Assembly: GCA_017444345.1 (NCBI GenBank)
Contig: JAFSWW010000133.1
Coordinates: 1-42,286, forward strand
Direction: 5' to 3'
DNA length: 42,286 bases
From: Synergistaceae bacterium
GTDB lineage: Bacteria; Synergistota; Synergistia; Synergistales; Aminobacteriaceae
The notes under the pieces were generated by a model. It ran no database searches. It saw nothing but the letters and a program-made list of their open reading frames with translations, and was not told the origin of the DNA. Every line of letters begins with the position of its first letter. The first letter of the stretch is position 1. Below are positions 38,548 through 42,234 of the stretch, one piece after another. The position numbers and the translations under genes are program-made.

Positions 38548-38578
38548 ATTATATTATTATCAGGAGGGCGATTTTAAC

Positions 38579-40387
38579 GTGCAAGCTGTGATTTTAGCTG
38601 CGGGAATGGGCAAGAGGCTTAAAGAATTAACCCGCAATAATACAAAATGTATGGTAAAAGTCAACGGCGTTACTCTAATTGAACGAATGCTAAGACAGCT
38701 GGACAAGCATAATTTATCGCGTGTTATTATAGTTATCGGCTATGAAAGTGAGAAGCTAATTAAATATATTGCAACTCTCAACACAAAAACGCCGATTGTG
38801 TATATTAATAATTCCATCTATGACAAGACTAATAATATTTACTCGCTGGCACTCGCAAGTGAGCATTTATGCAATGAAGATACTTTGTTGCTTGAGTCTG
38901 ATTTAATATTTGATGATTCCGTTATTGATTGCATTCTTGACGACCCTCGCGAAAATTTAGCACTTGTCGATAAATATGAGTCATGGATGGACGGGACATG
39001 CGTAAAATTACATAGGGGGGGGGGGGGCATAGAGTCATTCGTTCCCGGCAAAAAATTTAAATTTGACGAGATTCACGAATATTATAAAACTGTGAATATT
39101 TACAAGTTCAGCGAACATTTTTCACGAACTCACTATGTGCCTTTTCTTAAAGCCTATCAGGAAGCACTCGGACGCAATGAGTACTATGAGCAGGTTCTAA
39201 GAATTATAACTATGCTCGATTATCCCGAAATTGAAGCGAAAAAATTACACGGTCAAAAATGGTACGAGATAGACGACATTCAAGACTTAGAAATCGCCGA
39301 GTCTATTTTTATGCCAAATGATGACGAGAAAATTAAACGCTTTGAAGCAAGATACGGCGGTTATTGGCGTTATCCGGGACTGATTGATTACTGCTATTTA
39401 GTTAATCCGTTCTTCCCGCCTAAGAGATTGCTTGACGAAATACGCGCAAATTTTGATGTCTTATTAACAAATTATCCCAGCGGTATGCAAGTGAATTCTT
39501 TATTAGCCGCAAAAAATTTTAACGTGAATATAAATAATATTTGCCCCGGTAATGGAGCTGCCGAGCTGATAAAAAGCCTCATGGAAAATATTATAACTGG
39601 TAATGCCGGCTTTATTCGTCCCACTTTTGAAGAGTACCCGAATAGATATAATAATGAGAACTCTATAATTTTCACGCCTCCGAGCCGTGATTATAAATAT
39701 GACGCTGATGATATTATAAAATTTTTCGCTGATAAAGAAATTAGCGCGCTCGTCTTAATAAATCCCGATAACCCAAGCGGAAATTATATAAATAAATCAG
39801 ATATTAATAAATTAATTGCGTTCACTCACGAGAAAAAATGCAAGTTAATACTTGATGAGTCATTCGCTGATTTCGCAGATGAGAGTGATAATTCATTCAT
39901 AAATCAGGAAATATTAAGCGCAAATAAGCATTTATTTATCGTCAAAAGCATATCAAAATCCTACGGAGTGCCGGGGCTTAGACTGGGCATTCTTGCGTCA
40001 GGTGATTGCGAGATAATTTCACACCTCAAGAAAGATATTGCAATCTGGAATATAAATTCTTTCGCGGAGTTCTTTATGCAGATTTTAGGCAAGTACGATA
40101 AAGACTATCACGAGGCATTAAATAAATTCAGGCTTGAACGTGAGAGATTTACGCGTGAACTTGAGAGAATAAATAATTTAACAGTATTTCACTCACAAGC
40201 AAATTTCTTAATGGCTGAAGTTAAAGGCATTTCTTCGGACGAACTCGCTAAAAAACTGCTGGTCAGGCACAATATATTAATCAAAAATTTAGCTCGCAAA
40301 ACAGGGCAGAATTATATACGTCTGGCAATAAGAAATCAAAGCGATAATAATATTTTAATCGAGGCCCTGAAGCAAGAATTAAATTAA
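38579..40387 (+). CDS. Cytidylyltransferase-aminotransferase fusion (PntC-AEPT-like) with in-frame poly-G tract
   Basis: The 602-aa product joins an N-terminal LicC/PntC-type nucleotidyltransferase (about 1-245; LAAGMGKRL at 6-14, KCMVKV, LLESDLIFDD) to a C-terminal fold-I PLP aminotransferase (about 265-602; NPDNPSGNYI, ISKSYGVPGLRLG with PLP Lys about 460). In Treponema denticola this fusion order is known as PntC-AEPT, which makes 2-aminoethylphosphonate and activates it as the CMP derivative. Phosphocholine-type activation is the alternative. No PEP mutase or phosphonopyruvate decarboxylase gene lies in the window. It starts at GTG after CAGGAGGG. A run of 13 G (39015-39027) encodes R146-GGGG; loss of one G gives a stop after residue 150, and gain of one after 160. 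The frame here is intact. Confidence 0.8.
   Translation: MQAVILAAGMGKRLKELTRNNTKCMVKVNGVTLIERMLRQLDKHNLSRVIIVIGYESEKLIKYIATLNTKTPIVYINNSIYDKTNNIYSLALASEHLCNEDTLLLESDLIFDDSVIDCILDDPRENLALVDKYESWMDGTCVKLHRGGGGIESFVPGKKFKFDEIHEYYKTVNIYKFSEHFSRTHYVPFLKAYQEALGRNEYYEQVLRIITMLDYPEIEAKKLHGQKWYEIDDIQDLEIAESIFMPNDDEKIKRFEARYGGYWRYPGLIDYCYLVNPFFPPKRLLDEIRANFDVLLTNYPSGMQVNSLLAAKNFNVNINNICPGNGAAELIKSLMENIITGNAGFIRPTFEEYPNRYNNENSIIFTPPSRDYKYDADDIIKFFADKEISALVLINPDNPSGNYINKSDINKLIAFTHEKKCKLILDESFADFADESDNSFINQEILSANKHLFIVKSISKSYGVPGLRLGILASGDCEIISHLKKDIAIWNINSFAEFFMQILGKYDKDYHEALNKFRLERERFTRELERINNLTVFHSQANFLMAEVKGISSDELAKKLLVRHNILIKNLARKTGQNYIRLAIRNQSDNNILIEALKQELN
39015..39027 (+). repeat. Poly-G tract, 13 bases, inside a coding region
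   Basis: Thirteen uninterrupted G lie within a very AT-rich gene, encoding Gly-Gly-Gly-Gly at a predicted beta-turn of the nucleotidyltransferase domain. It is the longest homopolymer I see in the window. Tracts of this length are prone to slipped-strand change, as in Campylobacter and Helicobacter contingency genes. Confidence 0.95.
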
Positions 40388-41218: not shown

Positions 41219-42190
41219 TTATAGCCAAAATTTAGAGCTTGAGCCTTTCATGTTTATATCTATATTTATATTATTACGGCAAAGTTTATATATATTAGCA
41301 GCAAAATTTATATCATGTGCAGCAATCCCGATATTGTATGCTAAAATTCTTTCTTGATTGCTTTCACGTCCGGGGGATTTTCCGGTCAAAATATCTGACA
41401 CTTCAGCGAAATACTTAAATCCCGCAAAATTCTTAAAGTGTTTCACATGGCCGTAATCGTCTGCAAAAATTTTATCAAATATTAAATCGCAATTAGTAAA
41501 TCCCCTAGTATGAACAGGCAAAACAAGAACTCCGGGCGAAAAAATTTCATTATCAGCGCAAAAATCTTTATCGGCATATGTTACAGCAGATATTATAACG
41601 TCCGAATTCCGCATTAAATCATTATAATCTGAAACGCATTCAAATTTTAAATTTTTATAGCCGGCAAAACGTGTTATAAATAAATCTTCCTGCGATTTAT
41701 AGCGCAATAATTTTATTTGCAAGTCCCGTTTATATAATTCAGCAAGCACTAACAAGACAGCCCGTGCAGTGTTGCCAAGTCCCATAATAGCTATATTGCT
41801 GAAATTTTCTCTAGCAAGTAACTTTATCGAATGTGCTGCTACTGCTCCCGTTCTCATTGCCGTTATCCAGTCAGCATTCAATAAAGCTAATTCTTCGCCA
41901 CTATCTGCGTTAAATAATATTAATATGCTCTCAAGTGCAGGCTCTCTATTTGGATAACGAGTTACTATTTTTACGCCTCCCACTGAATAATCAAGCGGTG
42001 AATATTCACCAGGAATTATACACGGCATTACGTTGCAAAATCTGCCGTCTAGTAAACTTGAAAATTTCATGCTGATTTTTGGCGGAAGTATTATATTTGC
42101 TTTATTAATTAATAGCTCGTTCACCCAGTTATAACAAGTAACAGGACTTATTCCCATGGAGGCTATATCTTCAAATTTAATTATTTTCAT
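41219..42190 (-). CDS. Ornithine cyclodeaminase / mu-crystallin family protein
   Basis: A 323-aa NAD(P)-dependent enzyme of the OCD family, which includes ornithine cyclodeaminase, pyrroline carboxylate reductase and alanine dehydrogenase of archaeal type. The N-terminal part carries GVKIVTRYPNREPALES and the ALLNADWITAMRTGAVAA substrate region; the Rossmann loop is MGLGNTAR near 135. The C-terminal tail is Asn-rich. I choose ATG 42190, because GGAG lies 9 nt upstream; a TTG at 42205 is also in frame. Nine TTGTC/TTGTA repeats lie 45 bp upstream. It may share a transcript with the downstream transporter. Exact substrate is not visible. Confidence 0.85.
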   Translation of the reverse strand: MKIIKFEDIASMGISPVTCYNWVNELLINKANIILPPKISMKFSSLLDGRFCNVMPCIIPGEYSPLDYSVGGVKIVTRYPNREPALESILILFNADSGEELALLNADWITAMRTGAVAAHSIKLLARENFSNIAIMGLGNTARAVLLVLAELYKRDLQIKLLRYKSQEDLFITRFAGYKNLKFECVSDYNDLMRNSDVIISAVTYADKDFCADNEIFSPGVLVLPVHTRGFTNCDLIFDKIFADDYGHVKHFKNFAGFKYFAEVSDILTGKSPGRESNQERILAYNIGIAAHDINFAANIYKLCRNNINIDINMKGSSSKFWL

Positions 42191-42234
42191 GCTGCCAGAC
42201 TCCAATTATAATTATTTATATTAGAGTAAAATAT

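Follow-up and report, generated by a model that had tools for sequence, protein, structure and literature searches.

A probable poly-G switch in a nucleotidyltransferase–PLP enzyme gene of a Synergistaceae bacterium and a flank motif that appears to position G tracts in its genus

The usual account of contingency tracts is random slippage combined with selection. At lic1 of Haemophilus influenzae, phosphocholine varies in phase through tetranucleotide repeats in licA. FrbH, an enzyme of FR-900098 biosynthesis, has a CobD-like PLP domain. The cytidylyltransferase activity of FrbH is stated in a study that also describes the Ppm signature EDKxxxxxNS (PMC6697681). The Campylobacter phasome contains many poly-G tracts per genome, which lie mostly in ORFs with the G mostly on the coding strand and produce ON and OFF frames (PMC6321876).

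Here we analysed a 42,286-nt stretch of DNA, the window, from a draft genome of 2.33 Mb in 141 contigs (G000). The sole G or C run longer than six in the whole window is a tract of 13 G at 39015-39027, lying in frame within a GTG-started ORF of 602 aa; both the uninterrupted tract and the open frame had been claimed by the initial annotation and are confirmed. The locus comprises the following features:

38562..38567, + strand: candidate ribosome-binding site AGGAGG, probable, inferred from sequence
38579..40387, + strand: bifunctional nucleotidyltransferase/PLP-enzyme gene with GTG start (ORF, domain matches)
38579..39322, + strand: N-terminal MobA-like/PntC-LicC-like cytidylyltransferase domain, aa 1-248 (domain and structure matches)
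38999..39011, + strand: flank motif TGCGTAAAATTAC, a 13.6-bit match to TACGTAAWTTTAC that also codes C-V-K-L (matrix score)
39012..39014, + strand: gap between motif and tract, 3 nt, the modal gap of G000 (motif scan)
39015..39027, + strand: 13-G tract at ON length, codons AGG GGG GGG GGG GGC (sequence, frame check)
39028..39032, + strand: 3' border CATAG, source of the TAG stop at 12 G and a loose fit to the G000 3' consensus YATTA
39368..40372, + strand: C-terminal CobD/HisC-like PLP domain, aa 264-598 (domain and structure matches)
41219..42205, - strand: ornithine cyclodeaminase/mu-crystallin-family (OCD) gene, of a family that also adjoins the gene in Bacillota homologues and, by eye, in the congener G033

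An ORF tract of at least 8 whose length sets the frame marks a contingency locus, and G13 has this property: 13 G yields 602 aa, 12 G yields 150 aa and 14 G yields 160 aa, the truncations originally calculated, and 10 G and 16 G also give an open frame. The annotation had further placed the tract in a turn that tolerates Gly. In the alignment the tract occupies a loop that varies between homologues while the rest of the protein is conserved; this placement relies on the alignment, since an AlphaFold2 model is unreliable precisely at residues 131-172, around the tract. In 78 aligned homologues from outside the genus the site is an acidic linker (e.g. KL-SEDDS-IEAFVPG, where the window protein reads KL-HRGGGG-IESFVPG), and none of the 78 carries the G tract.

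The N-terminal half of the protein matches MobA-like transferases, the solved structure of PntC (6PD1, E 1.2e-15) and LicC (1JYK), and the C-terminal half matches CobD-like enzymes (6OUX, 3.6e-42). As in PntC cytidylyltransferases, the N-terminal PF12804 domain carries LAAGxGxRLxxLT...K, and Lys23 and Arg13 are invariant in the 28 sequences compared. The PLP domain is of the class I/II CobD-like type, not the class V AEP transaminase fused in PntC, and the PEP mutase gene (ppm), expected beside a PntC gene, is on another contig. By domain matches, the order of a MobA-like followed by a CobD-like PLP domain is that of FrbH. Neighbouring genes in the window encode PRPP synthetase, a formate/nitrite transporter and OCD. 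A search found over 400 relatives. The best 80, mainly from rumen and gut Bacillota, share 64-69% identity over the full length and often adjoin LicD and OCD or octopine-dehydrogenase genes; across the Bacillota homologues compared, identity to the intact 602-aa protein is 64-70%. Judged from sequence, the enzyme would likely supply a LicD-type transferase with a CDP-linked or CMP-linked head group, and this is probably a surface head group. The suggestion that it activates a head group of phosphonate or choline type is plausible, as the N-terminal half resembles PntC and LicC; the adjoining LicD genes in Bacillota also speak for it, as do G tracts in a LicD gene and a phosphoenolpyruvate mutase gene of G000.

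Genome-wide, G000 holds 46 tracts of at least 9 G (range G9-G18, mode 12). Over the 513 kb of G000 around the tracts, G/C runs of 4, 5, 6, 7 and 8 number 986, 242, 59, 6 and 1, and those of 9 to 14 climb back to 4, 9, 5, 12, 6 and 5, giving a bimodal length distribution. The decay of short runs, extrapolated, predicts fewer than one tract of at least 9 against the 46 seen, which excludes chance. G-sense ORFs contain 26 of the 46 (14 in frame, 12 shifted) and C-sense ORFs six (three in frame, three shifted); ten are intergenic or in short frames and four are at contig ends. About half of the coding tracts (17/32) are in frame. All 43 genomes of the genus carry tracts, with a minimum of two and up to 59.

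As expected of contingency loci, this excess is accompanied by a surface bias, the genes being mostly surface-glycan genes as judged from annotations. They encode FkbM and TylF methyltransferases, AlgX-like acetyltransferase proteins, GT1, GT6 and DUF4422 proteins, CDP-glycerol glycerophosphotransferase, EpsG, LicD, an epimerase, acetyltransferases and BACON-domain proteins, and also a fusion of phosphoenolpyruvate mutase with two nucleotidyltransferase domains that bears the Ppm signature. A likely phosphonate cluster (G000:C99:29800-36000, L095) contains this PEP mutase fusion gene (G12, out of frame) together with TPP decarboxylase-like, Fe-ADH and radical SAM plus cytidylyltransferase genes, a gene content that makes phosphonate synthesis in G000 likely. 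Four large proteins have tracts near their N-termini, all out of frame (G000:C49:9162, C62:57802, C79:22287 and C125:6175); some have lipoprotein-like starts, and they show BACON and/or weak leukocidin-like Pfam matches. Contigs C17, C31, C42 and C91 of G000 end in or beside poly-G, and the flank TCGTGTCGAGTAGT/TTGTGTCGAGTAGT is common to C17 and C42, which may belong to a repeat family that the assembly interrupted at its tract.

The gene has an orthologue in G033, of the same genus, which follows the same PRPP synthetase gene and has 12 G at the same place with a broken frame (OFF). The annotation had called for tract lengths in related genomes, and this pair, G13 ON against G12 OFF, gives the length difference expected of a contingency locus, between species only. 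Relatives with a non-repetitive sequence at the site would have argued against a switch; the sole congeneric orthologue found, that of G033, does not have one. Downstream of the G033 frame break, identity to the window gene is 77, 88 and 45% at codon positions 1, 2 and 3 and pN/pS is 0.21, i.e. purifying selection; the broken frame is therefore still in use in the population, or was so until not long ago, as a switch predicts. Other tracts also differ between species: a histidine kinase gene has G13 and G11 with flanks about 90% identical, a LicD gene G9 and G13, and a PEP mutase gene G12 and G13, a site where G034 has G8 and G017 lacks a run. Together, the 46-tract set, the G033 OFF orthologue under selection, the 17 of 32 coding tracts in frame, the prevalence of surface-glycan genes and the position in a variable loop support the ON/OFF phase variation first proposed, indirectly but strongly.

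We rejected loss of mismatch repair as a general cause of the tracts: mutS is present across the genus, with matches over the family cut-off in 37 of the 43 genomes, though frameshifted in the G000 assembly. There, a break near codon 244 divides mutS (G000:C138:229-2749, L324) into two overlapping frames, which would fit a mutator state or an assembly error. It is hardly credible that the tract is an assembly or sequencing artefact or that the gene is a decaying pseudogene. The assembly is a draft whose contigs in four cases stop at poly-G, as such errors might leave it, but lengths are bimodal, tract places are conserved in separate genomes, and a flank motif stands at fixed spacing; the selection past the frame break and the intact protein's identity to Bacillota homologues argue against this reading as well.

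That motif, first suggested by aligned 5' flanks, is the 13-bp TACGTAAWTTTAC, which precedes tracts on the G strand at their 5' side. Its nine-species consensus is TACGTAAATTTAC, with T1, G4 and A6 conserved at 92-95% in the above-threshold subset. The match in the window gene compares with 8.1 bits for the 99% quantile of random 26-mers, whereas homologues outside the genus score a median of 2.0 bits at the C-V-K-L codons, with 2 of 80 above 10.5. A matrix learned from G061, G027 and G035 picks G000 tract flanks (AUC 0.825, p 2e-14); the AUC of this matrix is 0.50 upstream of G4-G6 runs and 0.50 on G026 flanks. When each species was left out in turn, AUC was 0.94 for G033, 0.90 for G024, 0.88 for G034, 0.87 for G022 and 0.86 for G000 (p 2e-17), with a lower group of G017 (0.84), G061 (0.84), G027 (0.83) and G035 (0.74). 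For G026, a congener with 44 tracts, the value was 0.53, and the motif is absent. Summed over the 43 genomes, GTAAWW stands 2-14 nt before H-G9 in 227 matches versus 17 for the reversed pattern. The motif lies on the upstream side only and close by, not further upstream. It accompanies intergenic and antisense-coded (C-sense) tracts and, by inspection of sequences, occurs in all three codon phases, so it is not explained by protein coding.

The motif is not a general property of poly-G, an idea we rejected because tracts on viral contigs showed little excess (38 matches versus 31) and inspection of the listed flanks of G077, G108, G130 and G165 found none. A hairpin or cruciform was likewise rejected, as changes in one half of the motif are not balanced by changes in the other. 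The motif is degenerate, and it does not suffice by itself: in the fetched sequence a tract follows at only about 10% of its best matches, and about one third of G000 tracts have no match above the 95% random level. A literature search of limited scope found nothing on homopolymeric-tract flank motifs or phase variation in this group.

These data bear on whether the gene is simply an ordinary slipped-strand locus, the motif arising as a by-product of composition, codon use, paralogous ancestry or stop selection without any dedicated factor. We consider this fairly unlikely. Surface genes are a well-known place for poly-G contingency loci (PMC6321876), a number of tracts here are paralogous and so not all independent within a species (three AlgX-like genes share ACGCAATTTACGCAA), and TTACGCA and TGCGTAA are mildly frequent across the genome. 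However, held-out species are predicted whereas G4-G6 runs are not, the motif is also found antisense and between genes, the same gene is spaced differently in different species, and the tracts of G026 and of viral contigs do without it.

Spacing between motif and tract is species-specific. The modal gap is 7 in G033, 5 in G024, G034, G035 and G061, 4 in G022 and 3 in G000, G017 and G027, and 57-87% of tracts by species fall within one base of it, compared to a random expectation of about 21-22% with 26-nt flanks and 35-44% with only 18-nt flanks. Gap medians differ between G000 (3) and G033 (7; p 4e-9), with no difference between G000 and G017. In the window gene itself the motif TGCGTAAAATTA(C/T), coding the conserved C-V-K-L, is separated from the tract by 3 nt in G000 and by 7 nt in G033, in each case the modal gap of the species, and further G000/G033 gene pairs have gaps of 3/8, 3/9, 4/6 and 2/4. 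The spacing model for G000 and G033 was trained with both species included, and the leave-one-out figures are the clean ones. Longer tracts tend to have shorter gaps (rho -0.53 and -0.46 for G000 and G033 tracts), so erosion of the first Gs at the tract's 5' edge may explain part of the spacing. In G033 a GA frequently appears within the 7-nt gap, a few bases ahead of the tract, and the motif there may be longer than that of G000. At the 3' border YA is over-represented (YATTA in G000), and the tract's 3' end may be constrained too.

Transcriptional phase variation through a variable promoter spacer is known, and the motif and the 3' border YATTA could be read as promoter-like boxes with the tract as the spacer. 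The distance from motif to 3' border (gap plus length) is about 15-18 nt, and many G026 flanks have TTGACA some 7-8 nt ahead of the tract, as such a switch would have it. Most G000 tracts, however, lie inside ORFs, where about half are frame-shifted, and T..GTAA, the strongest positions of the motif, do not resemble a promoter, making this explanation very unlikely. The G026 tracts, which often follow TTGACA at that distance or end in CGT, suggest promoter-spacer tracts under a different rule.

A bolder alternative is a writer, in which a site-specific nickase or recombinase-like enzyme would bind the motif and cut at a set distance from it, and an untemplated G-preferring polymerase would make tracts de novo, with no growth through slippage. 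Fixed distance and strand specificity would suit it, as would tracts replacing a loop that has no G-run in homologues. Short G-runs are not enriched for the motif, and thus no reservoir of half-grown tracts is seen. Yet the candidate enzyme is only hypothetical, and the G8 at the G034 PEP-mutase site looks like an intermediate. A reverse-transcriptase (DGR-like) version was rejected, as RVT_1 was not found in the motif-bearing drafts G000, G017 and G061, as far as these are complete. We regard a nick-and-extend writer as unlikely and favour a DNA-bound factor.

We therefore think it probable that the tract is a poly-G contingency switch and that such tracts are positioned by a putative sequence-specific DNA factor acting on the motif. 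Gain or loss of one G at replication would shift the frame and turn the enzyme OFF or ON; the switch itself is best explained by slippage. The putative factor would sit on TACGTAAWTTTAC and help G-runs to arise and slip a fixed distance away, for example by halting the polymerase there, and selection would then keep tracts that land in surface genes. The data directly show the tract, its frames, the set of tract genes, the OFF state of the orthologue and the motif with its spacing; from these patterns we infer that strains switch, that a factor exists and how it would act. More tentatively, and with some doubt, a dedicated machine of the genus might recognise TACGTAAWTTTAC and, with a species-specific ruler, create or expand poly-G, making arbitrary genes phase-variable, among them recent acquisitions like the gene for this Bacillota-type enzyme.

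The main novelty is the positioned flank motif: these switches appear addressed. A shared motif with species-specific spacing suggests that tract places are set by a cis signal, and hence that mutability itself is addressed. The origin of contingency loci becomes a directly testable question, and the genus gains a large set of candidate phase-variable surface genes, including phosphonate, LicD and glycosyltransferase genes. It also suggests a route by which a switch could take control of an enzyme gained by lateral transfer.

Among known systems, lic1 resembles this one in switching a pathway of head-group activation and transfer with LicC/LicD-type chemistry; its repeats are in licA, whereas here poly-G lies in a nucleotidyltransferase fusion, with a separate tract in a LicD gene. 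FrbH, likened here by description and not by sequence, combines a cytidylyltransferase with a CobD-like PLP domain as the window protein does, but belongs to an antibiotic cluster, while homologues of the window protein sit with LicD and OCD or octopine-dehydrogenase genes. PntC, the 2-aminoethylphosphonate cytidylyltransferase (PMC6697681; PDB 6PD1), shares the MobA-like domain (E 1.2e-15), LAAGMGKRLKELT...K and fusion to a PLP enzyme; its partner is a class V AEP transaminase, that of the window protein is CobD/HisC-like, and the window has no adjacent PEP mutase gene. The Campylobacter poly-G loci are alike in being many, mostly in ORFs and with ON/OFF frames. Their tracts are mostly 9-10 long (PMC6321876), whereas those of G000 are longer, with a mode of 12 and up to 18; a positioned motif goes unmentioned in PMC6321876, where the word 'motif' does not occur.
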